Positions 2,991 to 62,501 of a DNA stretch of 64,000 bases are shown here, piece after piece. Each line of letters opens with the position of its first letter. The first letter of the stretch is position 1. The stretch is from positions 124,001 to 188,000 of the forward strand of contig WHVD01000017.1 in NCBI GenBank assembly GCA_015178975.1, read 5' to 3'. The DNA comes from Hysterangium stoloniferum (taxonomy: Eukaryota; Basidiomycota; Agaricomycetes; Hysterangiales; Hysterangiaceae). The notes under the pieces were generated by a model. It saw only the letters and a program-made list of their open reading frames with translations. It was not told where the DNA came from and searched no databases. Both the position numbers and the translations under genes were made by a program.

Positions 2991-3052
2991 ACAGCAGTGA
3001 CGACGTTCTGTGGAGATACTCACTGTGATTATCGTGATAACAAGAACCTACC

Positions 3053-8479: not shown

Positions 8480-8900
8480 CCGCTCCTTGGCATTCAAACT
8501 TGACTTTAGACATTTCCTATGGTCATAGATGTACACCGTGAGCCAGTTTACGCTCGTTGTTTTATTTTTATTTTTATTGAGGCAGTTAGAGGCGCCATGA
8601 GATAAGATAGCTTCAATCATGCAGTCGACGCTGTAATGTACTCGATTCCGGTCTTCCAATGCTTTACCCCGATACAATTATCATCGCTGGGAGACATCTT
8701 GCCTACCCCAGACTGGGCTTTATTAGGAAGATCCCCATTGCGGTAACAAGGTACATTTAGCAGACGTCCCTCACGTCTCCTTGAACTCGGTCAGCTATCG
8801 ATCGTTTGTAATGAGTTGATATCATAATTTCCACAGTGACTATTGAATGAAATCACGGGTTGTAGCGAGCTGAATTATATTTGATAGGGGTGTAATATGA
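8480..8900 (-). pseudogene. relic matching the 3' flank of the DUF6535-HEAT genes
   Basis: The minus strand has RGKALEDRNRV where the downstream flank of the giant gene (about 21840-21900) has RGKTLNGRDRV, and the following bases stay alignable up to a shared GGGGTGTA. It shows that a further copy of the DUF6535 locus, or of its flank, once stood here. Strongly decayed. Confidence 0.45.
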
Positions 8901-16181: not shown

Positions 16182-16251
16182 ACATTAGTGACGATATTTC
16201 TGTAAGGATACTTACTGATATTACTGTGATAGCAAGAAAGCTAACACGGCC

Positions 16252-18963
16252 ATGATCCTAGGATCCCCTGATTACTCACGACACCAGTCGCGGACCGGTG
16301 TTGTTTCCGAGGCACCCCATTCTCCAGAGCAAAGGAGCCTCCGCCGCAGCGTTCGACAATCTTTCGGTCCGAATGCCAAACATAAAAGTGCCCATTATGA
16401 GTTTAAAGACGTCGAACCTAGACCTGGTCCGAAAAATATGTATCGACATCGCCATCCTACCCCACACCCACACCCACACCCCTCTGTTCAAGCTGTGCAC
16501 GATATTGCGTATCCCAGTGCCATTCATACCAAGTCTATTCAGAGGACTGAGGAGGTAACTGCCCACGTCGGCAGCCACAATGCCAGTCGTCCGATGCCTA
16601 CAGGGAGCGAAATTATTGGTCGGTTGAGGAGCAGTAGAGACTATCCCATTGCGGACGTCAACAAGACCGGAAGATCGTCAACTATACCACCCAATAATAT
16701 ATTAAGACTGAGATCGTCCCGTCGAAAACCTATCCCTCCACCATTGCCTGGTTTTCTCGATAATGATCTCGACGACAATAACAGCGATACCAATACCAAT
16801 ACCCATAACAACAACAATAGAGAACCCACACCGATACCACTAATGTCCCGTTCCGCCGTACGCAAGAGAATCGCACAATTGCGCTTGCGTCAACCCCAAG
16901 AATCTAACGCACACCCAATCCCCTCGCTTATTATCCCCATCATAAAGTCTGACTCTGATTCTTCACGCAACTCACACTCTAACTCAAGTGACCATGCAGA
17001 CCCGCCAACCCTCGGACGCGGTTTTTTTGGCTTCCCAGCCAAGTCGCGATACTTTAACTTCGCGCGCAAGAAGAATGGCGATGTGCCACTTCTTAGTGAA
17101 CCGAGACGAAGAGGCTATTGCCATATGTCGATGCCTGCCCTACGTATTCCTAGTATCCTGTTACCAAAACGGCTCGGATTTCCGAAGTGGAGAACGACAG
17201 GGACTGCGGTGGATGTTGGTGATGGCGATGGCGGCGGTTTAGTGAACCGCAGTGCAGCCGTGTATGGGTATAGAGCTATGGTGCAAGACCGACAGCGTTT
17301 TTTCAGAGAAGGGGGGACGCCTTCCTTACTTGAAAATCGGCCACCTTCTCCTTCCATTCGACATGATCGCACCTCGTTATTGGTACATGACCGCGCGACT
17401 TCTGTCAAACAGCGTGAACCTTTTGTCCGACAACGCGCGACATCTCTGCAGTCGAATCGGCCGCCTTCCATCCGACCACGCGCAACTTCTTTGCAGTCAT
17501 ACCAACCGCTTTCCGACCGACAAAATGCGACTTCTTCACAATTAACCCGTCCGCCTTCCATCCGACCACGCGCGACTTCTTTACAGTCATACCAACCACC
17601 TTCCAACCGACAAAATGCGACATCTTCACAATTAACCCGTCCACCCTCCATCCGACCACGCGCAACGTCCCTACAATTAAACCGACCGCCCTTCGGTCTC
17701 AATCGACAAGGTCAAGGCCAAACAACCTCCGTCACGAAGCACGATAGCCGCGCTCCAAGTGGTGCAGGCGAGGGTCGGTATGGGGTGGTGCCTAAACAGC
17801 GCGAGACTGTGCATTTCGTAAAAACGTCTTCGCGTAACAGTGAGAAGCCTCCTTCGTCTCCTGGTATGTTTAATGTCCATCCTTATTATTTTTTCAACTT
17901 TTATTCACGGTGTCTCCCATGCATCTCTATCCTTGTCTCGAACTGCATCCCTGGTTCCTGTTATGTTTTTATCGCCTGACTCCATCCTTCCAGCCTTCAT
18001 CCAACAGACACAAACACGGATGCGGGCGCCACTAGGCACTACATGTCCATTGCTTCATCCGCTTCTTCTGACGCCGACGTCGTTGCGATCCGCGAGATTG
18101 CATTGGGATGTGCGGGATCCGCGGCTAACACAGAGAGTGGTGCCTGACCGCCTTCTTAAAGGTATGAGGGATCATCATTCTCGTTTATTAAATACTCCAT
18201 AGGCATGCATCGTTTGTCGTTGGCATTGTCACCATTCGGTTCGGTTTGCGACCGTTTTCCTTGTCACTCTTCACGGTCGTGTTTCTGTGATTTGTATCCG
18301 TGAACATCTAACACTGACACCATGCTCTCTTCTCTTTCTCCACCAGAGCCATTCATAACCCCCACAGCCACAATTTCGGCCACACGCGACTCACTCTCAC
18401 TCTCCATCCCCATCCCTATCCCAGCCGCCTCTTCCTCCTTTCCCCCCTTCACATCTCTCACCAACACCACCTCCAAAAAGTGCGCCAATAAATACTGGAC
18501 AATCCTTCTCCCCGCCATTTCCCCCTCTTCGCAATACAGCCTCAGCCCACCGACGGTGCTCCAAGTCCTCACCACCATCAGCACGGCCCTCCGTGTGCGT
18601 GCGAAGCCCCATGAACTCGCGGCGCTGTATGATGAGCGGAACGTGAGGTATAGAAGGGAGGTAGAGGAGGTGTTTAGGAGGCGGTATGAGAAGGAGGATG
18701 GAGAAAGGAAGACGGAGAGGGTTAGCACTGGCAATGGGATGGGGATGGGAAGTAGGGCGGGGGGTGGAGGGAGACAGGAGAGACTGGGGATAAGGAGGGT
18801 GGATTTGTTGGGGAAGAAGACGAGGTGGGTTGCGTTTCCATGCCCCTCCCGCTGTTTATAACGAATGCTGACCAGACTTTTCGCATATAGATGGTTAGGT
18901 CTGGAGTATGGGAAGGATGTTGAGGGGTGGGTTGTTAAATTGGGAAGTGTGAATTTGCAATGA
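16252..18963 (+). CDS. DUF6699-like protein with disordered N-terminus (paralogue 2)
   Basis: Exons by eye: 16252-17863, 17994-18161, 18347-18824, 18891-18963; total 2331 nt, 776 residues, closed by TGA. Splice phases and exons 2 and 4 have the same lengths as in the paralogue at 3053 (168 and 73 nt). The globular end again reads LHPLLLTP, LHWDVRDPRLTQRV, KYWTILLPAI and WLGLEYGKDVEGWVVKLG. The disordered part is about 200 residues shorter and its repeats are arranged differently. The start is MILGSPDYSRHQ. It belongs to a duplicated block (about 16000-19292 matching 2787-6745) that includes the promoter and the 3' stump of the BTB gene. The intact frame in both copies suggests that both are functional. 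Confidence 0.8.
17458..17690 (+). repeat. near-perfect 102-bp tandem duplication in coding sequence
   Basis: The unit encoding RPPSIRPRATSLQSYQP plus a DRQNATSSQLT-type segment occurs twice in a row with few changes, followed by a partial third unit. 102 bp keeps the frame. The paralogous gene has other unit combinations. Confidence 0.75.
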
Positions 18964-22233: not shown

Positions 22234-25200
22234 CTACAATGTTGTCAAGAGTCCGTGTCTATCCATTTCCAGTATCAAGGCCCGAATACAATCAGAAGGA
22301 ATATCACCCATAAAATGTATCATGAAGGACAAAATATGAGCAACTTCAAGAATGGTATGGCTTACAAAAGCTGGAAAAATTGGCATTCATACAACTAGAA
22401 GATGGAAGCACTCACCATCCTCCAAGAGGATTTGAATCAGCGTGCCACGGTGTAGGAGGGGTGGTTCAGGTAGATAGAATTGGCACAGTGCAATGAGGAC
22501 GATCTGCAGCTTGAGGTTGGAAAAGTAACCTGAAAGACGGTAAAAGGAGTCAACGCCCGGATGCAATGAAAGCATACCATATTTAGAAAAAGCAGCAAAC
22601 AATTTTACACCGAATGAAACAAATTCATGTTCCTCGGCAGCAACGAGGGATGCACAGTGATGTTCTAGGTTACAACGAGCAATTGGATCACGAAAGCAAT
22701 CTTTGAAAACGGATCTAAGAAGAAACTGTTGACTTGGGCGTTAAGGCACGCACCGTGTGTTGATAGCTTGAGGAGCAAGACTACAACATGTGTTGGATCG
22801 GATGAGTATGTATCCTCCAAAAGTTTAACAATACTAGGAATAGCACGCGTAATGGCAAATCTAAATCCCGCTAAGGTCAAATGTCAGCTGGAATCCGATC
22901 CGATTATGATGCACTGAACCCTGGCATGAAAGCTTCGCCAAGGCCGATGAAGCGTCTGATCTAACACGGGACAAAGGGTTCTTCAAACATGCAACAATAT
23001 CGGGGATAGCAAGCGACACGGTAGCTTGAAATTCGGCTGGGGACAATGTCACTCGGAGTCCCATCCCATTATGATGCATCGCACCTTGCTCTGAAAGCTT
23101 GGCCAGGGACGATGCTGCGTTTGAACGAACAAAGTCGTCAATGTCCTTCAAAAGTGCAACAATGTCAGGGATGGCACTCAAAATGGCAGGCCGAAATTCG
23201 GCTGTGATCAAATGTCAGCTACATTGCCATCCCATTAGGAGGCACCGCACCATGCTCGGAAAGCTTGGCCAGGGCCGATGCTGCGTTTGAACGAACAAAG
23301 TCGACACTGTCCTTCAAAAGTGCAACAATGTCGGGGATGGCATTCAAAATAGCAGGGCGAAATTCGGCTGTGATCAAATGTCAGCTACATTGCCATCGCA
23401 TTATGCGGCACCGCACCTTGCTCGGAAAACTTGGCCAGGACCGACACTGTGTTTGCACGAACAAGGTCGACAGTGTCCTTCAAAAGTGAAACACTGTCGA
23501 GGATGGCACTTAAAATGGCAGGGCGAAATTCGGCTGTGATCAAATGTCAGTTAGATTGCTATCCCATTGTAAAGCACCACACCTTGCTCGGAAAACATGG
23601 CCAGGGCTGATCCAACATTTAATTGATCGGATGAGTAGGAGTCTCGCAAAAGTATGACAATGTCGGGGATGGCATTCACAATGGCAGGTCGAAATTCGGC
23701 TAGGGTCAAATGTCAGTCGGATTCCCATTCCATTATGATGCAACTCACATTGCTCTGAAAGCTTGCCCAAGGCCGACGATGCGTTCAAACGAAGGAAGAG
23801 GTCAGAGTGATTTAAAAGTGCAACAATGTCGGAAATGGTACTCGAAATGGCAGGCCGAAATTCAACTGTGATCAATGTCAGCTAGACCCCCATCCCATTA
23901 TGATCCACCGCACCTTGCTCTGAAAGCTTCGCTAGGGCCGACGCTGCGTTTGAACGAACAAAGGCCTCAGTGTCCTTCAAAAGTGCAACAATGTCGGGAA
24001 TGGCATTCGAAATAGCAGGCCGAAATTCGGCTGTGAGCAAATGTCAACGATGTTCCCATCCCATTATGAGGCACCTCACCTTGTCCTGAAAGCTTTGCCA
24101 GGGCCGATACTCCATTTAATCGCATAGATGACCTAGAGTCCTTCAAAAGTACACCAATGTCGGGAATGTAACCCAATATGGCAGCGTGAAATTCGGCTAT
24201 GTCAAACGTGAGCAAGCTTCCCATCCCATTTAGAGGTACTGGACCTTGCTCTGAAAGCTTCGCTAGGGCCGATACTCCGTTAAATCCATCCGATTGGGGC
24301 CAGTTCTTTAAAAGTGCAACAATGTCGGGAATGGCACTCGCAATGGCGGGGCGAAATTCGGCTGTGGGTAAATGTGAACTGGATTCCCAACCCATTATGA
24401 TGCCCCGTACCTTGCTCTATAAGCTTGGCCAGAGCTGAAACTCCGTTGGATCCAACGAGGCCGTCCGAGTCCTTCAGAATTCCAACAATGTCGGGAATAG
24501 CATCCGAAATGGCAGGTCGGAATTCGGCTGTGATCGATTGTCAGCTGGATTTTTATCCCATTGAGAGACGCCCCACCCCGTTCTGAAAGCTTGCCCAGTA
24601 CCGAGACTGCATTGGACCGAACGGTGTTATCAGAGTCTTTCAAAAGCATGACAATATCAGGAATGGCACGGGCAATGGCGGCTCGAAATTTATCTGGAAA
24701 CCCATCAATTATAGCAGTTTACAAGGAGTCGGCGCCATACCAAACACATGGAGAGTAATCACCGCCTGTACAAGAGCCAATTTTCCTTCACGCACTCTGA
24801 GATTGAAGCTGGGTAATGTGAGGCCAAAATTTTGTGCTTTTAAGTAGTTTGGAAATTGGGCAATGAATAATATATGAATATATGAGGTCTCTTCACGTAC
24901 ATGTCATCGTTAACTGTTGAAAGATCTTGATGCCTTCATGACGCCGAATACTGTGAGTACTCTGTAAGAGATCCATAGTCGACCAGAGACGGCGCGTCGC
25001 GAATTGGGAGATGTGGTGTATGTCGGGCTTATTGACTAGATCACTGTTATATGTATGAGTATGGGGTGGGGCAGAAGGGGGGATGGTCAAGCTTCGGAGT
25101 GGAGTTGAAGGGGGATTGTGCGGCGATGGCCGCATGCTGTCAGACAAACCTACAGCATCAAGTATGTGACCCCTGATAAGAGGAAGGAGCTTCGCTACGG

Positions 25201-28200
25201 AGACTTAAGGAAAATGCTTCATAAAGAATTATTGGACTACCTTTCTCAGATAGCTTGGCCAGGAGAAATGCTGCGCTTGATCGAACGGGGGCATGAGAGT
25301 ACTTCAAAAGTGCAACAATGTCAGGAATAGCACCCTCTATGGCAACTTGACATAGCGCCATGTTCAGATCTCAGCTGGATTCACATCCCATTATTGAGGC
25401 ACCGCACCTTGCTCTGAGAGCTTTGCCAGGGCCGATACTGCGTTTGATCGAACGGAGGGGAAAAAGTGCTTCAAAAGTGCAACAATTGCGGGAATGGCAT
25501 CCAAAATGGCAGGTCGGAATTCGTCTGTGGGGAAATATCAGCTAGATTCCCATTCCACTGTGACGCATCCCACCTTGCTGTGACAGTCTGGCTAGGGCCG
25601 ATACTCCTTCTGACCCAGTGGATTCGACCCATTCTCCTAAAAGTGCAACGATGTCAGGAATGGCATACACAATGGCAGCTCGAAATTCGGCCGTCGTCGA
25701 GAGGGTAGTCCGGAATTCGACTGTGGTCAAATGTCACTTGGATTGCCATGCCATTATGTGGGACCGTACCTTGCTCTGAAAGCTTCGCCAGGGCAGATGC
25801 TGCGTTTGATCGAACAGAGGACCTAGAGTCCTTCAAAAGTGCAGCAATGTCGGAAATCGCACTTGAAATTGCAGCTCGAAAGTCGGCTGTCAACAAATGT
25901 CAGCTGGGTTCTCATCCCAATATGAGGCACCGCACCTTGGTCCGAAAGCTTGACTAGTGCTGATACACCATTTAATCGAACAAATTCGTGGGAATCTTTC
26001 AAAAGCATGACAATGTCGGGCATGGCATCCACAATGGCAGGTCGAAATGTGGCTGGCGTCAAATGTCAGCTGGGTTCCCATCCCATTATGCGGCACCGCA
26101 CCTTGTTCCGAAAGCTTGGCCAGCGCTGATACACAGTTTGATCGAATGGATGCGTCGAAGTCTTTCAACAGTATGACAATGTCGGGTATGGCATCGACAA
26201 TGGCCGGTTGAATTTCGGCTGGGTTCAAATGTCAGCTGGGTTCCCATCCTATGAGGAGGCGCTGCAACCTTGCTTGGAAAGTGTGGCCAGTGCTGATACA
26301 CCATTTGATTGAACCAATTCGCTAGTGTCCTTGAAAAGTGCAAAAATGTTGGGAATGACATCAGCAATGGCAGGCCGAAATTCGGCTGTGGTCAATTGTG
26401 AGCTGGGTTCCCATTCCATTATGGGGCACCGTACCTTGTTCAGAAAGCTTCGCTAGTGCTGATAGACCATTTGATCGAACGGATGCGTCGGAGTTGCTCA
26501 AAAGTATGACAATGTCCGGTATGGCATCCACAATGGCAGATCGAAATTTGGCTGAGGTCAAATGTCAGCTAAGGTCCCATCCCATTATGGGCACCGCACC
26601 TTGTTTCGAAAGCTCGGCCAGTGCTGATACACCATTTGATCGAACGGATTCCTCGGAGTCTCTCAAAAGTATGACAATGTCGGGTATGGCATCCACAATG
26701 GCAGGTCGAAATTCGGCTGGGGTCAATTGTGAGCTGGGTGTTCCCATCCCATGAGGATGTAATGCAACCTTGCTTTGAAAGCTTGGCCAGTGCTGATACA
26801 CCATTTGATCGAACCGAGTGGTCAGTGTCCTTCAAAAGCGCAACAATGTTGGGAATGACAACAGCGATGACAGGCCGGAATTCTGCTGTGGTCAAATGTC
26901 AGCTGGGTTCCCATCCCATTATGAGGCACTGCACAATGGTCTGAAAGCTTGGCCAGGCTCGATACTCCGCTCGAACGAACAGAGAAGTCAGTATCCTTCA
27001 AAAGTGCAACAATGTCCGGAATGGCACGCGAAATGGCGACTCGCAACTCGGCTGCGATTAAATTTCAGCTGGCTTCCCATCTTATTATCAGGCACCGCAC
27101 CTTGTTCTGAAAGCTTGGCCAGGCTCGATACTCCGCTCGAACGAACAGAGAAGTCAGTATCCTTCAAAAGTGCAACAATGTCCGGAATGGCACGCGAAAT
27201 GGCGACTCGAAACTCGGCTGCGATTAAATTTCAGCTGGCTTCCCATCTTATTATCAGGCACCGCACCTTGTTCTGAAAGCTTCGCCACGGCCGACAGTCC
27301 GTTTGAACGAACCCAGCTGTCCATGTCCTTCAAAAGTGCAACAATGTTGGGAATGACATCAGCAATGGCAGGCCGGAGTTCGGCTGTGGTCAAATGTCAG
27401 CCAGGGTTCACATCCCATTATGGGGCACTGCACCCTGTTCTGAAAGCTTGGCCAGGGTCGATACTCCGTTTGAAAAAACGGAGTAGTCAGCGTCCTTGAA
27501 AAGTGCAACGATGTTGGCAATGGCACCCGAAGTGGCAACTCGAAATTCGGCTGTGATCAAATTCTAGCAAGATTGCCATCCCATGAAGAGTCACCGAACC
27601 TCGTTCTAAAAGCTTCGCCAAGGCCGATACTCCGTTTGATCGAACGGTGTTGTCAGAGTCCTTCAAAAGTGCAATAATGTGGGGAATGGCCCCACAAATG
27701 CCAGTTGGGAAATTCACTAAAAAAACGCTGCATATTATATCAAACTCCTTTTCCACTTCACATACTCTTACCACATTTCACCAGTAATTGTTCTCCGGGA
27801 TCAGTTCCATTTTGAAAGTCGTTCGTACTACATTTTGCTAGTCTCTTTATCCACTCGTTCCCTTTTCCGGCCGTGCGAATACGTTAGCGACGTGTATTTT
27901 CATCCATGTAAAGAGGACAGTTCACCTACTATAACACCCTTCCCTTCGAGCATTCTCCGGCAATCTTCTGCTCATCCATCAGTTTCTTTCCTGTAGCATG
28001 ACAAATGTCCTTACTAAGATGCCAATATGCCAATATTACCTCTTCGCAGCTTGCACGTAGGTCCTCTTTCTCTGACAATGCTCCATCAATAGCAGCCATC
28101 ATCAATGTCTGTCGCTCGTAAGGTGCTGCACCCAGAGTGATCAGAGTTTCGATATCTGAGTATGTCGACACCCCTAGGTTACCGTCATCCATGTTTACCT

Positions 28201-29675
28201 TAATACCAATAAGTACCGCCAACCCCAACATCTTCAGGCAAGGCTCTAGACTGTCCAACCGATGTAAAGGTCTCCCGACCTGTATCAGGGTTTTGAAGGG
28301 GGTAAGGTACTCTTCGTCTATCAGTCTGTCTGTTCGTGGCGACAGGAATCGAGACATTGCAAGGAGAGAAACTTCAGCAAGCTTTGCATCACGTACGGTG
28401 ACGACGCCCGCGGTAACGTGAAAGCAACTTTCAAAGATTTTGCACAGTTTTTCCGTTACCGCTCGTTGGCACAAGGCTATTCGCAACTGTTCACATGGTT
28501 TCGCACCTGCTACAGCCCTCAGTGCCTCCTGAACTGCCTCCTCCGACATAGATTTTGCAAACACCCATGCCAGGACATCAGCTTCAAGTTCGGCCCGTTG
28601 AGGCTTGCGTTGTGCTTCGACCAAGAACCGAGAGACGCTCTCTAGCCATTCGGAAATTCTAAATGGATCTGTCCATGTCGATGAAAAAGACCCAGGATCG
28701 TCTAATCCGGACGTCCCATACTTTGCGCCTGCAGAGACGACCGGGAAAAAGCGTGACATTGTTGTCTGAAAGGGACAGGCGGGGGAAAACAAGGGACATA
28801 ACGTGCCGAGTATATATAGCGCGATTCCGCATCCGGTCAAAAAAAGCATAAGTACGCCTAAAGCTACGCTGTTATTCCAGGTGAACAAGACGAGACCTGC
28901 AGAAAAAAGAAAGAGAGCTAGTTGGATCAGAAGCGGGATGCCAGTAACAACTGACTCGAGGCGCCACTGCTGCGCTCTCTTAACACGAAGGAGACGTTGA
29001 CATGCATCACTTGAGCGACTTCCTGGGGATACAGGAATATACTTCGCCAGCCATTCCCTTGCAAGTACAGCACAAAGCGCACTGAAGAGGGTCAGACCGA
29101 GACTACCGAACCACAAATAGTTGATAACAAGGGAAGATTTGGAGACTTCAAAAGACGGAGAGGTAGTCGCAGCGAACTGATTTTGGAGTGTGTTCAGGAT
29201 TTCCTGAAGAGGATCTACCTGCAAATCCTTCCTACTTTCGATCAGGAAAGCGGTAAGAATCCCTCCAAACAATCCTGCCTGAGAAAATGTGAATTGAATA
29301 TCACGTCAAAGGAGAATGAATTCAGTTTACAAATATGAGAAGCTCGTCGATACCAACTTGCAATGAATTGGCAAGTTCTTTGTCCTCTTTTTCCGTTTCC
29401 CTTAGATATAACGACCATATGGTTGAATCCGATTGAAAGTGCTTGGCATAGGGGTTGCCTTCCTCGCTATCTAGGCCATCACCACCACTGGATGCCCCCT
29501 TAGTTGGGGTTGAGGGAACCGTGGTAGCCAGCCGCGAAGGTTGAAGGTTGGTCGTTCCTGATGCTTCCGTTTGCGTGCTTCAGTTAAGGAAAAGAGTAAA
29601 ATCTGATGTAATACCTGCGGCAACCGGTATCTGTGATTCAGCGGAGCTACTGTCTCCTGCATATTGCGAAGACAT
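22234..29675 (-). CDS. DUF6535 membrane domain - HEAT-repeat array protein, copy 1
   Basis: Starts at ATG 29675 (MSSQYAGDSSS). Exon 1 is 29675-29615, exon 2 29557-29331 (ends DELLIF), exon 3 starts at 29278 (AGLFGGILTAFLIES). The DUF6535 pattern continues with SLGLTLFSALCAVLAREWLA, two more hydrophobic segments (GIPLLIQLALFLFSAGLVLF and ALGVLMLFLTGCGIALYI) and a helical region to about 27940. About 27 HEAT exons follow (15 in 27720-25300, 12 in 24690-22800), each encoding one repeat of the type FRPAIADAIPDIVALLKD with VRSNGVSALAKLSEQ. A non-HEAT segment (25147-24700, with RRLWSTMDLLQ and LTLPSFNLRVREGKLALVQ) separates the two blocks. The C-terminal exons hold CNLEHHCASLVAAEE, LIALCQFYLPEPPLLHRGTL and HFMGDIPSDCIRALI, ending at TAG 22234. 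DUF6535 is a common N-terminal module in agaricomycete proteins of unknown function. Most splices are clear; those at 27940-27720 and 22740 are not settled. Confidence 0.75.
22800..24690 (-). repeat. HEAT exon-intron array, C-terminal block (12 units, gene copy 1)
   Basis: The unit of about 166 bp consists of an exon of about 117 bp (one HEAT repeat) plus an intron of about 49 bp (GTGCGGTG...GACCACAG with a CTGAC branch site). The core ATTCCCGACATTGTTGCAC recurs at regular spacing. Since 166 is not a multiple of three, the introns must be removed to keep the frame; 117 is. Confidence 0.85.
24690..25150 (-). other. non-HEAT coding segment between the array blocks
   Basis: Conserved with 40830-41330 in the other gene copy. 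It contains NPPSTPLRSLTIPPSAP, NKPDIHHISQFATRRLWS and NLRVREGKLALVQAVITL. The first part is proline-rich and the second helical. An intron probably lies near 24850-24900. Not matched to a known domain. Confidence 0.6.
25300..27720 (-). repeat. HEAT exon-intron array, N-terminal block (15 units, gene copy 1)
   Basis: Same unit as in the C-terminal block. One unit near 25700 carries a short extra in-frame piece (reading VEFRTT ahead of TAEFRAA), also present in the second gene. The block starts with a divergent unit (NFPTGICGAIPHIIALLKD) after an acceptor near 27725. Confidence 0.85.
26940..27271 (-). repeat. recent tandem duplication of one HEAT exon-intron unit
   Basis: 26940-27105 and 27106-27271 are nearly identical, in part of the exon and in the intron. 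The second gene has only one such unit at the matching place (about 42925-43090). Confidence 0.8.
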
Positions 29676-37200: not shown

Positions 37201-38193
37201 CATAGTGATTCATTTTTCAAAGACTACATGCCCACTAAAAGGCTGGCAAGAACGGATTAAGTGGTGTCGAGCAGGCATCCTGGGCTTTAAAAGTACTGAG
37301 GCTGTTGACCTGAAGGAGTTGTTGCAAGGCAAGGGTCGAATTAGTCAAACTGTCGGCGAGAATGGTTGTTGGTCTTCCAGGACCAGAAAAGTCACAGCGT
37401 GATTTAGATTCAAAAACTTCATCGCCGTGTGTATTCCCGCGGGGGGGAAGTCTAACACCCCCACCCCATACTAGAATTGGGCCTACCACATGCACGCGCA
37501 AGTATGTATGAAAAGCTACAGCTATGTTTTAACCGTCCAAGGAGCCATTTACACCTATTACAGTATTCCAGTCTTAAAACTCGGATATTAATAGGTAAAC
37601 CTTTCCTTCCAATACAAAGCGGATCATCGTTCAATCGTGGGAATTAGTATATAGTTGGGATGTCCCAGAGTACAATGACTTCCAAATCTTAAGTCAGCTT
37701 ACAGTCGACGTCATTGGAGATTTATACATAAATCCTGTGGAGTTAGTAAGGACAGGAATGTTGGTATGTCAAATCGCCTTTGTTCGTTGTGAGGTAGGAC
37801 AGGTTTAATCATGTAGTCCATGTCCTACTCGATCCCGGCCATTCAAAGTTTTACCTCGATCCAATTATCTCAACTGGTAAAGATATTGCCTACCTTTGAC
37901 TAGGCTTTAAAAGGGACCTGATTGCTGCCACAAATGGACATCAAAAAGAGCTCCCTCACCTCGATATGAACGGACTTAGCGCTATAGCTTGCAGCAATCG
38001 ACTGTTTAATAAATCAAGCTGAGCTAATAATATTGAATGGGGTGTACAATCTAGTGAAAGGGATGTGGGGTAGACACGAATGGCACAAGGTACCGAGTGC
38101 ATAAGGATTTCGCGCGAGCCACGTATAAATGTGAGTGGAATTTTCGCCGTGCAACAACTCTTAGTTCATAGTAGTGTGCGAGACTATAATGTT
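37201..38193. other. junction and 3' flank of DUF6535-HEAT copy 2
   Basis: 37690-38193 aligns with the 3' flank of copy 1 (21710-22233). 37201-37689 is a junction zone with retroelement-like pieces; no gene seen. Confidence 0.5.
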
Positions 38194-41100
38194 GTCAATA
38201 GTCCGTGTCTATCCATTTCCAGTATCAAGGCCCGAATACAATCAGAAGGAATATCACCCATAAAATGTATCATGAAGGACAAAATATGAGCAACTTCAAG
38301 AATGGTATGGCTTACAAAAGCTGGAAAAATTGGCATTCATACAACTAGAAGATGGAAGCACTCACCATCCTCCAAGAGGATTTGAATCAGCATGCCACGG
38401 TGTAGGAGGGGTGGTTCAGGTAGATAGAAGCGGCACAGTGCAATGAGGACGATCTGCAGCTTGAGGTTGGAAAAGTAACCTGAAAGACGGTAAAAGGAGT
38501 CAACGCCGGATGCAATGAAAGCATACCATATTTAGAAAAAGCTGCAAACAATTTTACACCGGATAAAACAAATGCATCTTCTTGGGCAGCAACGAGAGAT
38601 GCACAGTGATGTTCTAGGTTACAACGAGCAATTGGATCACGAAAGCAGTCTTTGAAAACATTGTTGAGAAGCAACTGTTGATTCGCATGTCAAGCCACGC
38701 ACCGTGTGTCGATAGCTTGATGAGCAAGTCGACAACATAATCTGGATTGGATGGGTGTCTATTTTGTAAAAGTTTAACAATACTAGGAATAGCACGTGCT
38801 ATGGCAGATCTAAATTCCGCTATGGTCAAATGTCAGCTGGATTTCCATGCGATTATGAGGCACTGAACTCTGGTCCGAAACCATCGCGAGGGCCGATGAA
38901 GCGTTTAGTTGAACATAGTCCCAAGTATCCATCAAAAGGGCAACAATATCGGGGATAGCACGCGACACGGCAGCTCGAAATTCGGCTGGGGACAATGTCA
39001 CTAGGGGTCCCATGCCATTATGATGGACCGCACCTTGCTCTGAAAGCTTGGCCAGGGCCAATACTCCGTTTGATCGAAGAGCGGGGTTAGCGTCCTTCAA
39101 AAGTGCAACAATGTCGGCGATGGCACTCAAAATGGCAGGCCGAAAATGGGCTGTGATCAAATGTCAGCTAGATTACCGTTCCAATATGAGGCACTGCACC
39201 TTGCTCTGAAAGCTTGGCCAGGGCCGACAATCCGTTTGATCGAACAAAAGGCTCAGTGTCCTTCAAATGTGCAACAATGTCGGGAATGGCACCCGAAATG
39301 GCGGCCCGAAATTCAGCTGTGATAAATGTCAGCTGTGTTCTCATCTCATTTTCAAGGCATCACACCAAATTCTGAAAGCCTGGCCAGTGCTGATCCAATA
39401 TTTGATTGACCCCACGGGTCAGGGTCTCGCAAAAGTATGACAATGTCGGGTATAGCATCCACAATGGCAAGTCGAAATTCGGCTGGGGTTCAAATGTCAG
39501 CTGGGTTCCCATCCCACTCTGATGCAAAGCACCTTGCTCTGAAAGCTTAGCCAGGGCCGATGCTGCCTTTGAACGAACAAAGACCTCAGTGTTCTTCAAA
39601 AGTGCAACGATGTCAGGAATGGCACGCGACACGGCAGCTCGAAATTGGGCTAGGGTCAAATGTCAGTCGGATTCCCATCCCATTATGATGCAACTCACAT
39701 TGCTCTGAAAGCTTGGCCAGGGCTGATGTTGTGTTTGAATGAAGGGCGAAGTCAGAGTGCTTTAAAAGTGCAACAATGTCGGGAATGGTACTCGAAATGG
39801 CAGGCCGAAATTCAACTGTGATCAATGTCAGGTAGATTAGGATCCTATTGTGACCCACCGCACCTTGTTCTGAAAGCTTCGCCAGGGCCGATGCTGCGTT
39901 TGAACGAACAAAGTCGTCAGTGTCCTTCAAAAGTGCAACAATGTCGGGAATGGCATTCGAAATAGCAGGCCGAAATTCGGCTGTGAGCAAATGTCAACGA
40001 TGTTCCCATCCCATTATGAGGCACCTCACCTTGTCCTGAAAGCTTTTCCAGGGCCGATGCTCCATTTGAGCGTATAAATGACCTAGAGTCCTTCAAAAGT
40101 GCACCAATGTCGGGAATGGTACCCAAAATGGCAGTGCGAAATTCGGCTATGTCAAACGTCAGTAAGCTTCCCATCCCACTTAGAGGTACTGCACCTTGCT
40201 CTGAAAGCTTCGCTAGGGCCAATACTGTGTTGGATCCATCCGACTGGCGCCAGTCCTTTAAAAGTGCAACAATGTCGGGGATGGCACTCGCAATGGCGGG
40301 GATGGCACTCGCAATGGCGGGGATGGCACTCGCAATGGCGGGGATGGCACTCGCAATGGCGGGGATGGCACTCGCAATGGCGGGGATGGCACTCGCAATG
40401 GCGGGGATGGCACTCGCAATGGCGGGGATGGCACTCGCAATGGCGGGGATGGCACTCGCAATGGCGGGGATGGCACTCGCAATGGCGGGGATGGCACTCG
40501 CAATGGCGGGGCGAAATTCGGCTGTGGTTAAATGTCAACTGGCTTCCCAACCCATTATAATGCACCGTACCTTGCTCTAAAAGCTTGGTCAGAGCTGATA
40601 CTCCGTTTGATCCAACAAGGCCGTCCGAGTCCTTCAAAATTGCAACAATCTCGGGAATGGCACCCGAAACGGCAGCTCGGAATTCGGCTGTGATCGATTG
40701 TCAGCTGGATTCCTATCCTATTGAGAGACGCCCCACCTCGTTCTGAAAGCTTGGCCAGTACCGATACTGCGTCGAACCGAACGGAGTTATGAGAGTCTTT
40801 CAAAAGTATGACAATGTCAGGAATGGCACCGGCAATGGCGGTGCGAAATTCCTCTGGAAACCCATGGACTATGGTAGTTTGCAAGGAGTCGGCGCACATA
40901 CCAAACACATGCAGAGTAATCACTGCCTGTACGAGAGCCAATTTTCCTTCACGCACTCTGAGATTGAAGCTGGGCAAGGTGAGGCCAAAATTGTGCGCTT
41001 TCAAGTAGTTTGGAAATTGGGGAATGAATAATATATGAAATAATATGAGGTCTCTTTACATACATGTCATCGTTACCTGTTGAAGGATCTTGATGCCTTC

Positions 41101-44100
41101 ATGACGCCAAAGACTGTGAGAACTTTGTAAGAGATCCATAGTTGACCAGAGACGGCGCGTCGCGAATTGGGAAATGTGGTGTATGTCGGGCTTATTGACT
41201 AGATCACTGTTATATGTATGAGTATGGGGTGGGGCAGAAGGGGGGATTGTCAACCTTCGGAGTGGAGTTGAAGGGGGATTGTGCGGCGATGGTCGCATAC
41301 TGTCAGATAAACCTACAGCACCAAGCATGTGACCCCTGATAAGAGGTAGGAGCTTCGCTACGGAGACTTAAAAATAAAATGCTTTATAAAGAATTATTGG
41401 ACTACCTTTCTCAGATAGGCTGCCCAGGAGAAATGCTGCGCTTGATCGAACGGAGGCATGAGAGTGCTTCAAAAGTGCAACAATGTCAGGAATGGCACCC
41501 TCTATGGCAACTTGACATAGCGCCGTGTTCAGATCTCAGCTGGATTCACATCCCATTATTGAGGCACCGCACCTTGTTCTGAAAGCTTGGTCAGGGCCAA
41601 TACTGCGTTTGACCGAACGGGGGTCTTCAAAAGTGCAACAATTGCGGGAATAGCATCCAAAATGGCAGCTCGGAATTCAGCTGTGGTGAAATGTCAGCTA
41701 GATTCCCAGCCCACTGTGACGCATCCCACCTTGCTCTGAAAGTTTGGCTAGGGCTGATGCTCCATCTGACCCAGCGGATTGGTCCCATTTTCCTATAAGT
41801 GCAACGATGTCAGGAATGGCATCCACAATGGCAGCTCGAAATTCGGCCGTCGTCAAGAGAGCAGTCCGAAATTCGACTGTGGTCAAATGTCACTTGGATT
41901 GCCATCCCATTATGTGGGACCATACCTTGCTCTGAAAGTTTCGCCATGGCAGATGCTGTGTTTGATCGAACAGAAGGCATAGAGTCCTTCAAAAGTGTAG
42001 CAATGTCGGAAATCGCACTTGAAATGGCAGCTCGAAAGTCGGCTGTCAACAGATGTCAGCTGGGTTCTCATCCCAATATGAGGCACCGCACCTTGGTTCG
42101 AAAGCTTGGCAAGTGCTGATACACCATTTGATCGAACATCTTCGTGGGAGTCTTTCAAAAGTATGACAATGTCGGGCATGACATCCAGAATGGCAGGTCG
42201 AAGTTGGGCTGGGGTCAAATGTCAGCTGAGCTCCCATCCCATTATGAGGCACCGCACCTTGTTCCGAAAGCTTGGCTAGTGCTGATAAACCATGTGATCG
42301 AACGGATGAATCGGAGTCTCTCAAAAGTATGACAATGTCTGGCATAGCATCCACAATGGCAGGTCGAAATTTGGCTGGGGTCAAATGTCAGCTGGGCTTC
42401 CATCCCATTAGGGCACCGTACCTTGTTCCGAAAGCTTGGCTAGTGCTGATAAACCATTTGATCGAACGGATGCGTCGGAGTCTCTCAAAAGTATGACAAT
42501 GTCCGGTATAGCATCCACAATGGCAGGTCGAAATTTCGCTGGGGTCCCATGTCAGCTGGGGTTCCATCCTATTATGAGGCACCGCACCTTGGTCCGAAAG
42601 CTCGGCCAGTGCTGATACACCATTTAATCGAACTGATTCGTCGCAGTCTCTCAAAAGTATGACAATGTCGGGTATGGCATCCACAATGGCAGGTTGAAAG
42701 TCGGCTGGGGTCAAATATGAGCTGGGTTCCCATCCTATGAGAATGCAATGCAACCTTGCGGTGAAAGCTTGGCCAGTGCTGATACACCATTTGATCGAAC
42801 CGAGTGGTGAGTGTCCTTCAAAAGTGCAACAATGTTGGGAATGACATCAGCAATGGCTGGTCGGAATTCGGCTGTGGTCAAATGTCAGCTGAGTTCCCAT
42901 CCCATTATGAGGCACTGCACAATGGTCTGAAAGCCTGGCCAGGCTCGATATTCCGCTCGAACGAACAGAGAAGTCAGTATCCTTCAAAAGTGCAACAATG
43001 TCGGGAATGGCATGCGAAATGGCCACTCGTAATTCGACTGTCATTAAATGTCAGCTGGCTTCCCATCTTATTATGAGGCACCGCACCTTGTTCTGAAAGT
43101 TTTGTCACGGCCGACACTCCGTTTAAACGAACCCAGCCGTCAGTGTCCTTCAAAAGTGTAACAATGTTGGGAATGACATCGGCAATGGCAGGCCGGAGTT
43201 CGGCTGTGGTCAAATGTTAGTCAGGGTTCCCATCCCATTATAAGGCACTGCACCCTGCTCTGAAAGCTTGGCCAGGATCGATACTCCGTTTGAAAGAACG
43301 GAGTGGTCAGTGTCCTTCAAAAGTGCAACGATGTCGGTAATGGCACCCGAAGTCGCAACTCGAAATTCGGCTGTGATCAAATGTGAGCAAGATTACCATC
43401 TCGTTGTGCGCCGCCGCACCTTGTTCTGAAAGCTTCGCCAAGGCCGATATTCCGTTTGATCGAACGGTGTTGTCAGAGTTCTTCAAAAGTGCAATAATGT
43501 GGGGAATGGCCCCACAAATTCCAGTTGGAAAATTCGCTGAAAACCGCTGCATATTATAGAAACTCCTTTTCCACTTTGCATACTCTTACCACATTTCACC
43601 AGTAATAGTTCTCCGGGGTCAGTTCTATGTTGAAGGCGCTCGGTGCTACATTGTGCTAGTCTCCTTATCCACTCGTTTCCTGTTCCCGCCGTACCAATAC
43701 GTTAGCTGCTAAGTGTATTTTCATCCATGTAAAGAGAACAATTCACCTACTATAACACCCTTCCCTTCGAGCATTCTCCGGCAATCTTCTGCTCGTCCAT
43801 CAGTTTCTTTCCTGTCGCCATAACAAATGTCCTCACTAAGGTGCCAATATGCCAATAGTACCTCTTCACAGCTGGCACGTAGGTCCTCTTTCTCTGACAA
43901 CGCTCCATCAATAGCAGCCATCATCAACGTCTGTCGCTCGTAAGATGCTGCACCCAAAGTGATCAGAGTTTGGATGTCTGAGTCTGTCGACACCGCTAGG
44001 TTGCCCTCATCCATGTTTACTTTAATCCCAATAAGTACCGCCAAACCCAATGTCTTCAGGCAAGGCTCTAAACTGTCCAACCGATGTAAAGGTCTCCCGA

Positions 44101-45492
44101 CCTGTATCAGGGTTTTGAAGGGGGTAAGGTATCCCCCGTCTATCAGTTTGTCTGTTCGCGGCGACAGGAATCGAGACATTGCAAGGAGAGAAACTTCGGC
44201 AAGCTCTGCATCACGTACCGTGACGACGCCCGCGATAACGTGAAAGCAACGTTCAAATATTTTGCATAATTTTTCCGTTACTGCTCGTTGGCACAGAGCA
44301 ATTCGCAATTGTTCACACGGTTTCGCACCTGCTACAGCCCTCAGTGCCTCCTGAACTGTCTCCTCCGACATAGATTTTTCAATCACCCATGCCAGGACAT
44401 CAGCTTCAAGTTCGGCCCGTTGAGGCTTACGTTGCGCTTCGACCAAGAACCGAGAGACGCTCTCTAGCCATTCGGAAATTCTAAATGGATATGTCCATGT
44501 CGATGACAAAGACCCAGGATCGTCTAATCCGGACGTCCCATACTTTGCCCCTGCAGAGACGACCGGGAAAAAGCGTGACATTGTTGTCTGAAAGGGACAG
44601 GCGGGGGAAAACAAGGGAAATAACGTGCCGAGTATATATAGCGCGATTCCGCATCCGGTCAAAAAAAGCATAAGTACGCCTAAAGCTACGCTGTTATTCC
44701 AGGTGAACAAGACGAGACCTGCAGAAAAAAGAAAGAGAGCTAGTTGGATCAGAAGCGGGATGCCAGTAACAACTGACTCGAGGCGCCACAGCTGCGCTCT
44801 CTTAACACGAAGGAGACGTTGACATGCATCACTTGAGCGACTTCCTGGTGATACAGGAATATACTTCGCCAGCCATTCCCTTGCAAGTACAGCACAAAGC
44901 GCACTGAAGAGGGTCAGACCGAGACTACCGAACCACAAACAGTTGACAATAAGGGAATATTTGGAGACTTTAAAAGACGGAGAGGTAGTCGCAGCGAACT
45001 GATCTTGGAGTGTCTGAAGTATTTCCTGAAGAGGATCTACCTGCAAATCCCTCCTACTTTCGATCAGGAAAGCGGTAAGAATCCCTCCAAACAAGCCTGC
45101 CTGAGAAACTATGAATTGAATATCCATAAAAGAGAATGAATTCACTTTACAAAGATGAGAAGCTCGTCGATACCAACTTGCAATGAATTGGTAAGTTCTT
45201 TGTCCTCTTTTTCCGTTTCCTTTAGATATGACGACCATATGGTTGAATCCGATTGAAAGTGTTTGGCATAGGGGTTGCCTTCCTCGCTCTCTAGGCCATT
45301 ACCGCCACTGGATGCCGCCTTGGTTGGGCTCGAGGCAACCGTGGTAGGCCGCAGCGAAGGTTCGCGGTTGATCCTTCCTGATGCTTCCGTTTGCGTGCTT
45401 CAGTTGAGAAAAGCGGAAAAACCTGATGTAATACCTGTGGCAACTGGGATCTGTGATTCAACGGAGCTACTGGCTCCTGCATACCGCAACAT
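38194..45492 (-). CDS. DUF6535 membrane domain - HEAT-repeat array protein, copy 2
   Basis: Paralogue of 22234-29675 with the same layout. Start ATG 45492 (MLRYAGASSSVESQ), then an exon with SDSTIWSSYLKETEKEDKEL ending DELLIF, an exon from about 45110 with AGLFGGILTAFLIES and four hydrophobic segments down to about 43740, about 25 HEAT exons (13 in 43540-41470, 12 in 40830-38770) around a conserved non-HEAT segment, and a C-terminus ending at TAG 38194. One HEAT exon (around 40281-40511) contains a 21-bp minisatellite of 11 units that lengthens its first helix in frame. The 1-nt difference from copy 1 near 43822 falls in what may be a short intron, so it need not break the gene. Likely membrane-anchored by inference; substrate or partner unknown. 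Confidence 0.73.
38770..40830 (-). repeat. HEAT exon-intron array, C-terminal block (12 units, gene copy 2)
   Basis: Units align one to one with 22800-24690, except that one exon is enlarged by the minisatellite at 40281-40511. Spacing is otherwise about 166 bp. Confidence 0.85.
40281..40511 (-). repeat. 21-bp coding minisatellite, 11 units, inside a HEAT exon
   Basis: The unit ATGGCACTCGCAATGGCGGGG (plus strand, 21 bp) is repeated 11 times with no visible differences. In the gene's frame (minus) it encodes the heptapeptide AIASAIP. The other gene has a single unit at 24322-24345. The insertion keeps the frame and adds 70 residues. Confidence 0.9.
41470..43540 (-). repeat. HEAT exon-intron array, N-terminal block (13 units, gene copy 2)
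   Basis: Two units fewer than the matching block in copy 1; one missing unit corresponds to the recent duplicate at 26940-27271. The unit near 41850 has the same short extra piece as in copy 1. Confidence 0.83.
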
Positions 45493-45895: not shown

Positions 45896-47471
45896 ATTAA
45901 TTGCAAACCGTAAGTCATAAGCTTACAGTCGACGTCACTGGAGAGTTGGAAAATAAATCTTGTGGAGGTAGTAAGGACGGAAATGTTGGTGTTCGTTCAC
46001 GAGGCATCATTTGCTATGTCAAACCGCGTTCGTCGTGAGGTAAGACAGGTTTAACCATGTAGTCCATGTCCTACTCGATCCCGGTTATTCAAAGTTTTAC
46101 CTCGATCCGATTATCTCAACTGGTAAAGATATTGCCTACCTTTGACTGGGCTTTAACAGGAACCTCATTGCTGCCGCAAGTGGATATCAAGAAGAGCTTC
46201 CTCACCCTGATATGAACGGACTTCGCGCAAAGATTTTGCACAGTTTTTCCGTTACCCCTCGTGTTGGCACAAGGCAATTCGCAACTGTTCACATGGTGTC
46301 GCACCTGCTACAGCCCTCAGTGCCTCCTGAACTGTCTCATCAGACATATATTTTTCAATCACCCATGCCAGGACATCAGCTTCAAGTTCGGCCCGTTGAG
46401 GCTTGCGTTGTGCTTCGACCAAGAACCGAGAGACACTCTCTAGCCATTCGGAAAATTCTAAATGGATATGCCCATGTCGATGAAAAAGACCCAAAATCGT
46501 CTGATCCGGACGTCCCATACTTTGCGCCTGCAGAGACGACCGGGAAAAAGCGTGACATTGTTGCCTGAAAGGGACAGGCGGGGGAAAACAAGAGAAATAA
46601 CGTGCCGAGTATATATAGCGCGATTCCGGATTCGGTCAAAAAAAGCATAAGTACGCCTAAAGCTACGCTGTTATTCCAGGTGAACAAGACGAGACCTGCA
46701 GAAAAAGAAAGAGAGCTAGTTGGATCAAAAGCGGGATGCCAGAAACAACTGACTCGAGGCGCCACTGCTGCGCTCTCTTATCACGAAGGAGACGTTGACA
46801 TGCATCACTTGAGCGACTTCCTGGGGATACAGGAATATACTTCGCCAGCCATTCCCTTGCAAGTACAGCACAAAGCGCACTGAAGAGGGTCAGACCGAGA
46901 CTACTGAACCACAAATAGTTGACAATAAGGGAAGATTTGGAGACTTGAAAAGACGGAGAGGTAGTGGCTGCGAACTGATTTTGGAGTGTGTTCAGGATTT
47001 CCTGAAGAGGATTTACCTGCAAATCCTTCCTACTTTCGATCAGGAAAGCGGTAAGAATCGATCCAAATAAGCGTGCCTGAGAAACTATGGATTGAATGTC
47101 CATAAAGGAGAATGAATTCAGTTTACAAAGATGAGAAGCTCGTCGATACCAACTTGCAATGAATTGGCAAGTTCTTTGTCCTCTTTTTCCGTTTCCTTTA
47201 GATATAACGACCATATGATCGAATGTGATTGAAAATGCTTGGCATAGGGGTTGCCTTCCTCGCTATCTAGGCCATTACCGCCACTGGATGCCGCCTTGGT
47301 TGGGGTTGAGGGAACCGTGGTAGGCCGCAGCGCAGGTTCGCGGTTGATCCTTCCTGATGCTTCCGTTTGCGTGTTTCAGTTTAGAAAACGCGTGAAATCT
47401 GATGTAATACCTGCGGCAACTGGGATTTGTGATTCAGCGGAGCTACTGTCTCCTGCATACTGCGAAGACAT
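45896..47471 (-). pseudogene. DUF6535 gene copy 3, HEAT array deleted
   Basis: Start region MSSQYAGDSSSAESQ at 47471, an exon region ending near 47130, then RLFGSILTAFLIESRKD and the following membrane segments to about 46252. At about 46228 the sequence jumps from the middle of the DUF6535 exon (matching 28430) straight to the 3' flank of the gene (matching about 22030). The rest of the exon, all HEAT units and the C-terminal module are gone, about 6.4 kb. The DUF6535 part also has small disruptions (the frame changes near 46510 and 46700). Probably non-functional, though a short membrane protein cannot be excluded. Confidence 0.7.
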
Positions 47472-60590: not shown

Positions 60591-60943
60591 TCATGTGTAG
60601 GTGTGACCATTGATGTTATTCACGTTGTGGCAGGTTTCGTAGTGGATGTAGCACTGGGTTTCTTGCTTAACAAAAGTCGGCCGGGATGCCTTCACTGGTT
60701 GTATGCAGGGTGGATTGCACTCCGTGGTATATCGTGATGTTGTGTTTATGTTTGCATTCGCTGTCTTTGTCATGTTGATTTTGTGTTTCTGCTCCAGTGC
60801 TAGTCCCTCAACACTGTTGGTTTACATTCCCTCCCGCCTTCGATGCTGCCAATGTGTCTCTCCCGCCCTCCTTCCACAGGTTCTAATCTCCCACCCTCCC
60901 CGCTCTTTCTCCTTTCCACTTTCTGTCAGGATGTGGTGCTGCT
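60591..60943. other. spacer, nothing recognised
   Basis: No coding or repeat signal that I trust between the LINE fragment and the orphan HEAT array. Confidence 0.4.
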
Positions 60944-62270
60944 GATACCCCCAGGACCGATATTGCACTTGCTCGAACGTCAGAGTCAGAGTCCTTCAAT
61001 AGTGCAACAATATGGGTAATGGCAGGTGCAATGGCAGCTCGCCATCTGGCTGTGGCTAAATGTCAGCTGGATTTCCATCCTATTATCACACCACACCTTT
61101 CTCTAAAAAATTTGCCAGGGTCGATACTGTGCTTGATTGAATGGAACAGTCAGAGTCCTTCAAAAGTGCAACAATGTTGGGAATGCCAGGCCTAATGGCA
61201 GCTCGAAATTCGGCTGTGGTCAAATGTGAGCTGGACTCCCATTCCATTATCACACCGTACCTTGCTCTGAAAAGTTCGCCAGTTTATGTACTGTGCATGA
61301 TCGAAAGAAAGGTTCAGAATCCTTCAAAAGTGAAAGAATGTCGGGAATGATACCCGCAATGGTGATGCAAAATTCGGCTGTGGTCAAATTGGATACCCAT
61401 CCCGTTATCACACCACACCTTGTTTTGAAACATTAACAAGGGCCACTACAGTGTGTACTTGAACAAAATGATGAGAATCGTTCAACAGGGCAACAATGTT
61501 GGGAATGGCAGGTGCGATGGCAGCTCGAAATTCGGCTGTGTCAAATGTCGGCTGGACTCCCATCCCATTATCACACACTGCACCTTGCTTTGAAAATGTC
61601 CCCCAGGACCCATACTGTAAACTGTCAAACGGAATTATCAGAGTGCTTCAACAGTGCAACAATGTCAGGAATCGCATGCGCAATGGCTGCTCGGGGTTCG
61701 GCTGTCATCAAATGTCAGCTGCATTCTCATCTCGTTATCACACACTGCACCTTGCTCTGAAACCTTTTCCAGGGCCAATACTGCCTGTGATTGAACATCA
61801 GAGTCAGAGTCCTTCAACCGTGTGACAATGTTGGGAATGACAGACACAATGGTGGCTCCCGATCCGGCTTTGGTCAAATGTCAGCTGGATTCCCATTCCA
61901 TTATCACACCACACCTTGCTCTGACACCGTCCCCAGGATGGAAACTGCACTTGATCAAACATCAAAGTTAGACTCCTTTAACAGTGCAACAATGGTGGTA
62001 ATGACACCCTCAATGGCAGCTCGAAATTTGGCTTTGGTCAAATGTCAGCTGGATTCTCATTCTATCACCACACTGTACTGTACCTTTTTCTGACATCTTC
62101 CCCATGAATGATACTGCTCTTGATCACACATCAGAGTCACTGTCCTTCAACAGTCCAACAACGGTGGGAATGACACCCTCAATAGCGGCTCAAAATTCGA
62201 CTGTGGTCAAATGTCAGCTGGATTCCCATCCCATCATCACAACCCACCTTGCCCTGAAACTCGTTGCCTG
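60944..62270 (-). pseudogene. orphan HEAT exon array, about 8 units
   Basis: Eight units with the same exon-intron design and about 165-bp spacing as in the giant genes (cores near 61003, 61168, 61332, 61488, 61655, 61825, 61985, 62155). More diverged from those arrays than the arrays are from each other, with several weakened VRSNG-like positions. No DUF6535 exon lies upstream (to the right), and no C-terminal module downstream. Either a relic of another gene copy or the middle of a gene broken by insertions. Confidence 0.65.
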
Positions 62271-62501
62271 CCTAATGGCTTCTGGAACTATGTAATGAGC
62301 TGTGATACAATGAGGTCACTAATGGCTTCGGCAGTCTTCATAAAGCAGTCCCTTTAGATCCACATAAAAAGTTATGATACGATTTTGTCTAGCCTGGAGA
62401 TCATAATTAGCTTTGTAGTTCCTAGTCAATGTCAAGATGAGTGGCACCTGTATGGTTGGGTAGAGGGAGAGTGGTTAGCTCTCTGCATATGCATGGGAAG
62501 A

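Follow-up and report, generated by a model that had tools for sequence, protein, structure and literature searches.

The stretch analysed here (the window) comprises 64,000 nucleotides of the Hysterangium stoloniferum assembly GCA_015178975.1 (contig WHVD01000017.1, positions 124,001 to 188,000 of the forward strand). Two long sister copies of a gene, alike in design, lie on its minus strand: copy 1 at 29675..22234 and copy 2 at 45492..38184. The exons of both copies follow the same order: two short N-terminal exons, a long DUF6535 exon, a small linker exon, a proximal array of HEAT exons, a pair of non-HEAT exons (X1 and X2), a distal array of HEAT exons, and three C-terminal exons. We are close to certain of this predicted architecture, in which DUF6535 is combined with HEAT units of one exon each.

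Gene models and the HEAT exon arrays

The boundaries of the regular HEAT units were set by the repeat itself, and those of the remaining exons were picked to suit the reading frame and GT-AG splice sites. The resulting predicted model for copy 2 comprises 34 exons that join into a single frame of 1,827 amino acids plus a stop codon, with no internal stops. Exon N1 (45435..45492) provides the start codon and is followed by a phase-1 intron, and DUF6535 begins in exon N2 (45151..45383), after which lies the sole phase-0 intron; the other 32 of the 33 introns are in phase 1. The long DUF6535 exon (43747..45100) and the linker exon LNK (43590..43679, phase 1 on both sides and with an equivalent open exon in copy 1) precede the 13 exons of the proximal array (P1-P13, 41406..43536). 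X1 (41064..41198) and X2 (40902..40997, phase 1 on both sides) are followed by the 12 exons of the distal array (D1-D12, 38703..40853), and the gene ends with C1 (38649-38527), C2 (38479-38366), and C3 (38320-38184, with the stop codon), which have phase-1 introns. The model for copy 1, also on the minus strand, consists of N1 (29675-29615), N2 (29563-29331), the DUF6535 exon (27926..29278), the linker exon (27772..27861), 15 proximal HEAT exons (P1-P15, 25241..27716), X1 (25035-24901), X2 (24836-24741), 12 distal HEAT exons (D1-D12, 22754..24693), and C1-C3 with the stop codon (22234..22700). The original prediction, which was made from the sequence of this region, had placed an array of one-repeat exons at 22800-27720. 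That range agrees with the HEAT exons (27716..22754, minus strand), but the gene model extends further, from 29675 to 22234.

The approximately 27 tandem units proposed for copy 1 and the 25 units of the same design in copy 2 were confirmed by the gene model, with 15 proximal and 12 distal HEAT exons in copy 1 and 13 and 12 in copy 2. The units are regular, but the array is not one uninterrupted tandem, as a segment of ~550 bp (25240-24694) is not HEAT and splits it. One exact exon length and a single intron phase characterize both copies: 25 of the 27 HEAT exons in copy 1 and 21 of the 25 in copy 2 are exactly 117 bp, and, as predicted, the HEAT exons are symmetric, with phase 1 throughout both arrays and all exons open in that frame. 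The off-length exons (147 and 105 bp in copy 1; 147, 108, 105, and 327 bp in copy 2) are every one divisible by three; the intron lengths are not. The longest of them is D3 of copy 2, in which an in-frame minisatellite with a 21-bp unit (40270..40511, minus strand; 11.5 copies with 99% matches according to Tandem Repeats Finder) adds 210 bp, or 70 residues of AIASAIP repeats, to the normal 117 bp. The introns belong to one sequence type, and 49 bp is their commonest length (17 of the 28 introns from P1 to D12 in copy 1 and 15 of the 26 in copy 2), in line with the earlier description. A CTGAC branch site, which was thought to be part of every intron, is present in only 14 of the 28 and 17 of the 26, and its universal occurrence is refuted by these counts. 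The intron upstream of the final unit of the proximal array (P15 of copy 1 and P13 of copy 2) has no AG at the usual site, and the model takes an AG located 12 nt further downstream, which preserves the frame. The exon-intron unit has a period of 166 bp across 22754-27716 and 38703-43536, which is near the nucleosome spacing of fungi.

Pfam profile searches with copy 2 matched both domains expected in the spliced protein. HEAT (PF02985) was found in the proximal piece, including the linker and X exons (E=5e-40, 132 bits with a cut-off of 23.5), and in the distal piece, which was queried without the minisatellite exon D3 (E=1e-21, 75.2 bits). DUF6535 (PF20153) was matched over the full profile (1-177 of 177) by N1, N2, and the long exon joined together (E=7e-44). 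Among solved structures, the best match to the proximal array was the scaffold subunit A of PP2A (E=1.5e-16), and designed alphaRep proteins were also matched. When a single unit was modelled with AlphaFold2 using 46 regular units as the alignment, it formed two antiparallel helices (residues 2-17 and 22-37 in a model of 38 residues) connected by a four-residue turn, with a mean predicted local distance difference test (pLDDT) score of 92. Given these helix positions, the exon boundary separates helix B from helix A of the next repeat. The claim that one exon corresponds to one HEAT repeat is supported. The hydropathy of copy 2 peaks at protein residues 87-267, within and beside DUF6535, and the hydrophobic DUF6535 exon likely encodes several membrane helices. 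Judged by this hydrophobicity, and not by a dedicated predictor, the DUF6535 N-terminus is likely embedded in the membrane. The minisatellite of D3 also exceeds the hydropathy threshold. NACHT and NB-ARC were absent from the Pfam families shown for copy 2 (three pieces with D3 omitted; 25 of the 29 families shown for the proximal piece), and the reading of the protein as a fungal NOD-like receptor (NLR) was rejected on this basis. Fungal NLRs with highly conserved repeats are defined by >85% identity between repeats across at least 100 amino acids; the 45 other units are 37-76% identical to the first and fall short of this level, although single pairs are closer (P4 and P5 of copy 1, 97% in DNA).

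Turnover and selection of the repeat units

Introns along the arrays are about as alike as exons, which indicates that duplication acted on the 166-bp unit of exon plus intron. In the proximal arrays, the median identities of exons and introns are 0.73 and 0.76 (copy 1) and 0.74 and 0.77 (copy 2); in the distal arrays they are 0.71 and 0.73 (copy 1) and 0.74 and 0.71 (copy 2). A tree of the units was built from 26 of the 27 copy-1 units, 23 of the 25 copy-2 units, and seven units from a separate, decayed array in the window. Because 19 of the 23 copy-2 units are sister to a copy-1 unit, most units are older than the split of the copies. D8 and D9 of copy 1 are mutual sisters (support 0.98), and the partner of copy-1 D7 is copy-2 D8. 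Two copy-1 units, P4 and P9, are without their own copy-2 partner: P4 lies outside the pair formed by copy-2 P4 and copy-1 P5 (0.80), and P9 lies outside the pair formed by copy-2 P5 and copy-1 P6 (0.85), so that a loss in copy 2 is as compatible with the tree as a gain in copy 1. The exons of P4 and P5 in copy 1 are 97% alike, their preceding introns are identical, and the 166-bp segments are 98% alike. The two copies differ in unit number and local unit order, and the expected variability of solenoid length is seen in their 15 versus 13 proximal units. The gain, loss, and shuffling of units may proceed through unequal exchange in register or through gene conversion, and we have good confidence that one of these processes would be the motor of array turnover.

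Selection between the two copies was estimated from the ratio of nonsynonymous to synonymous divergence (dN/dS), which is 0.27 for the DUF6535 exon (420 codons), 0.37 for the linker, X, C1, and C2 exons, and 0.77 for N2 alone. For the HEAT exons, the ratio is 0.73 (bootstrap 0.52 to 1.06) across 16 pairs, consisting of 11 proximal pairs and D1, D2, D4, D5, and D6. This set leaves out the unpaired P4 and P9 of copy 1, the weakest pair (P10/P8), the pairs of unequal length (P14/P12 and D3), the reshuffled D7/D8, and D9-D12. When nine distal pairs were considered alone, with D9-D12 included, the ratio was 0.84. Intron divergence is 0.116, close to dS. Ten positions of the repeat are variable (5, 8, 9, 16, 21-24, 29, and 30), of which 21-24 span the last part of the turn and the first part of helix B. 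In 14 pairs of 39 codons, dN is 0.149 and dS 0.120 at these ten positions, compared with a dN of 0.058 and a dS of 0.118 at the remaining 29. The direction was kept when the positions were defined on one array and tested on the other (dN 0.166 vs dS 0.058, and 0.106 vs 0.095). A conserved fold with a diversifying surface would fit these positional data, which provide a lead and not a proof.

Alternative readings of the arrays

If the arrays were decaying, non-functional tandem repeats, their open frames would be remnants, and several features of the window are in keeping with such a history. Compared with copy 2, the DUF6535 exon of copy 1 has a 1-bp deletion and a nonsense codon close to its end, so that the DUF6535 frame of copy 1 ends before the linker and array, although the exons of its linker, array, and C-terminus are open in a separate frame. 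A third copy (46228..47462, minus strand) has the N-terminal exons and part of DUF6535, and at 46228 this exon runs straight into the 3' flank, its HEAT array having been lost, apparently through one deletion. The separate decayed HEAT array (60920..62351, minus strand; eight units and one partial) has stops in three of its eight units, the partial ninth being excluded, and serves as an internal control. Exon similarity that is no higher than intron similarity can also be read as decay. In the arrays of copies 1 and 2, however, the phase-1 frame is open in all 27 and all 25 HEAT exons, with no stop in 52 exons, whereas the other five readings are open in 0 to 19 of the 27 and 0 to 17 of the 25. 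Simulated substitution from the consensus gave 17.4 and 14.3 expected stops for copies 1 and 2, with minima of 5 and 4 over 5000 runs; the simulation took only the exactly 117-bp exons (25 of 27 and 21 of 25) to their observed distance and assumes an independence of units that fails. This non-independence is partly sidestepped by counting substitutions between paired exons, and the 20 pairs, with 250 substitutions, contain no stop where 8.7 would be expected under uniform substitution. Frame is kept by all exon length variants, the third codon position is the most variable within the arrays (0.375 and 0.381 vs 0.229-0.270), and copy 2 is open across its 34 predicted exons. For copies 1 and 3 decay is a credible reading, but for copy 2 it is not, and as an account of the arrays it is improbable. 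Somewhat doubtful, yet with a better claim than decay, is the possibility that each copy consists of two adjacent genes, one with DUF6535 and the proximal array that ends near P15 or P13, and a second that starts from an in-frame ATG and carries the distal HEAT array and the C-terminus. The ~550-bp interruption is unlike HEAT units, and the long intron before X1 has diverged less between the copies (11 of 205 sites) than have the trimmed introns of 14 paired units (60 of 558). The last 110 nt of this intron, which show five differences and no gap, are open in the X1 frame in both copies and hold an ATG followed by a pyrimidine-rich stretch; X1 may therefore start upstream (at 25149 in copy 1, and possibly at 41312 in copy 2), or the second gene may begin there. 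The donor consensus is GTRNGT, compared with which the GTAGTC donor after the last proximal unit is weak, but equally weak donors occur elsewhere in the array (GTTGCA and GTCCAG). Between the copies there is a 2-nt gap within the initial 95 nt of the long intron, and X1, X2, and the introns around them conform to phase 1 on either side, joining the two arrays in frame such that the whole of copy 2 reads through as a single frame, as the one-gene model has it.

Two further alternatives concern the introns. Their common sequence type could mean that they were inserted singly, in the manner of introner-like elements, into an intronless HEAT array and were not copied with the exons. Intron divergence is approximately equal to exon divergence, however, and in the doubling of P4 and P5 in copy 1 the intron was copied together with its exon, for which reason one-by-one insertion was rejected as extremely unlikely. 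The symmetric exons might instead serve combinatorial exon skipping and produce isoforms with varied repeat number, as in NLRP3. Any set of HEAT exons can be skipped without loss of the frame, the donors are varied and several are off consensus, and there are precedents in the covered parts of the literature, to which all statements on published systems here and below refer: a modular leucine-rich repeat (LRR) exon of human NLRP3 is demonstrably skipped (PMC6642158), and a junction analysis in Schizophyllum commune recorded 1,527 skipping events in coding regions (PMC5034255). In the transcript analysis of the same fungus, however, skipping made up 1% of coding-region events and intron retention 44% (PMC5034255). 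If one intron from P1 to D12 is retained, a premature stop follows in 26 of 28 cases for copy 1 and in 22 of 26 for copy 2, and imprecise splicing would therefore be costly. Duplication of one unit alone yields the uniform design, with no need of selection for skipping. The proposal that phase-1 symmetry enables the gain and loss of units is correct insofar as such changes are frame-neutral, but introns are unnecessary for them, as the repeats of Podospora NLRs vary in number too (PMC4986451, PMC12222747); neither the word intron nor the word exon appears in the main text of PMC4986451, and intron is likewise absent from PMC12222747. Since skipping is rare in S. commune, retention gives stops, and a change in repeat number needs no introns, the introns may best be seen as passengers of the duplicated unit. 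They would ride along with unit duplication and would not be a device for exon skipping. Combinatorial skipping in the predicted arrays is unlikely, and that the symmetry exists to serve it is less probable still than decay.

Comparison with known systems and possible function

The closest known design is that of the Tetrahymena LRR genes, which consist of arrays of 90-bp exons with phase-2 introns (PMC6564038). Their authors were aware of no comparable exon uniformity in other eukaryotes and proposed unequal crossing over (PMC6564038). Uniform tandem exons, an extreme bias towards a single intron phase, repeat units made up of exon and intron, unit numbers that vary between close paralogues, and unequal crossing over as the motor are all features that recur in the fungal arrays, either as observed or as proposed here (PMC6564038). 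The ciliate exons encode LRRs in 90 bp with phase-2 introns, whereas the fungal ones encode HEAT repeats in 117 bp with phase-1 introns; the Tetrahymena introns are also longer (~257 bp in T. thermophila), most species have more than 1,000 LRR genes, and a link to retrotransposons has been described (PMC6564038). With a different repeat, phase, and length, the likeness would be one of design only, and these same differences point to an origin independent of the ciliate case. The LRR domains of human NLRs such as NLRP3 similarly place repeat modules on small, mostly frame-preserving exons, but these are animal LRRs for which alternative splicing has been shown, while the fungal array is known from sequence alone (PMC6642158). 

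Within fungi, the het-d/het-e NLRs of Podospora and their relatives resemble the present genes in their polymorphic repeat number, and one listed locus is of the HEAT type (PMC4986451, PMC12222747). For fungal NLRs with WD40, ANK, TPR, and HEAT repeats, exchange between repeats has been proposed (PMC4986451, PMC12222747), and positive selection, with accelerated change at a small number of sites in each repeat, was reported for WD40, ANK, and TPR repeats of Podospora-type NLRs (PMC4986451). These proteins differ by the presence of NACHT or NB-ARC and by a conserved class with >85% internal identity, and a layout of one exon per repeat was not met in the text covered (PMC4986451, PMC12222747). 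The basidiomycete gene CNN00420 of Cryptococcus offers a case in which duplication of an intron-bearing repeat has led to new introns within a population, although it gained two introns compared with the 25-27 units found here, and HEAT and DUF6535 were not met in the text covered (PMC2395259). The statement that no system of this kind was known in fungi stands insofar as our literature searches, in which coverage of subscription journals was poor, found no fungal array with one exon per HEAT repeat, but close designs have been published outside the fungi (PMC6564038, PMC6642158). The design is new as a fungal, phase-1, HEAT version of the already known uniform exon array.

Our favoured explanation, which we consider reasonably likely, is that the genes encode a DUF6535-anchored HEAT scaffold whose one-exon units turn over by exchange, perhaps acting as a recognition protein. 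The genes would represent a fungal family in which a membrane-embedded DUF6535 N-terminus is followed by a long HEAT solenoid, each repeat being one 117-bp exon set between phase-1 introns of ~49 bp. The solenoid would act as a protein-binding scaffold, with positions around the helix turn diversifying as they do in recognition proteins; a role in recognition is a serious possibility that falls a little short of being probable. Several observations weigh against the overall interpretation. The exon boundaries outside the regular units are our own choice by frame and GT-AG, predicted from the DNA, and the exons are not more alike than the introns. The fold prediction for DUF6535 reached a pLDDT of only 37 from three sequences, the third a fragment, and was not used. 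The bootstrap interval around the HEAT dN/dS of 0.73 includes 1, and the value could reflect relaxed constraint, all the more because copy 1 is disrupted ahead of its array. The three codon positions show 46, 37, and 56 differences between paired exons (546 sites each), such that the third is only slightly the fastest. The variable sites were chosen on the same data, and the cross-array comparison is purely descriptive, with small numbers and few synonymous changes. Pattern searches of viral and genome contigs with the DUF6535 open reading frame and the HEAT alignment found no relatives outside the window: among viral contigs, the DUF6535 query gave no pattern matches and the HEAT alignment gave 47, none of which was confirmed by tblastn, and tblastn upheld none of the 21 pattern matches of the DUF6535 query to genome contigs.

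The genes present a clean natural case in which the units of gene structure, protein structure, and duplication coincide, repeated ~25 times. Its occurrence in a fungus, with a different fold and a different intron phase from the ciliate case, would demonstrate a repeated origin of the design. We offer only tentatively, and with less conviction than the recognition role itself, the wider proposal that mushroom-type fungi evolved exon-array receptors independently of ciliates, as a recognition family outside the NLRs that is anchored in the membrane by DUF6535 and whose HEAT sensor is built from interchangeable one-exon units, which would turn over by unequal exchange and diversify around the helix turn. 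The genes also provide a concrete entry to DUF6535, a family that our literature searches found named in a single paper and for which the genes suggest a receptor-like role.

The remainder of the window contains a number of other features. On the plus strand, two similar-looking long open reading frames (3041-5743 and 16219-17979) contain repeated RPPSIR-like segments and have no Pfam match up to an E-value of 0.1. Matches to a multicopper oxidase (PF07731) and a BTB domain (PF00651) are located at 1480-1932 and 7405-7755, respectively, and a DUF6698 match slightly under the cut-off lies at 62724-63425. Two segments, 8639-8729 (77%) and 9236-9444 (92%), resemble the sequence downstream of copy 3 and are perhaps a dispersed repeat. 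Arrays of nearly the same 22-bp unit are present at 56838-58298 (66.5 copies, 99% matches) and 48233-48442 (9.5 copies, 97%).

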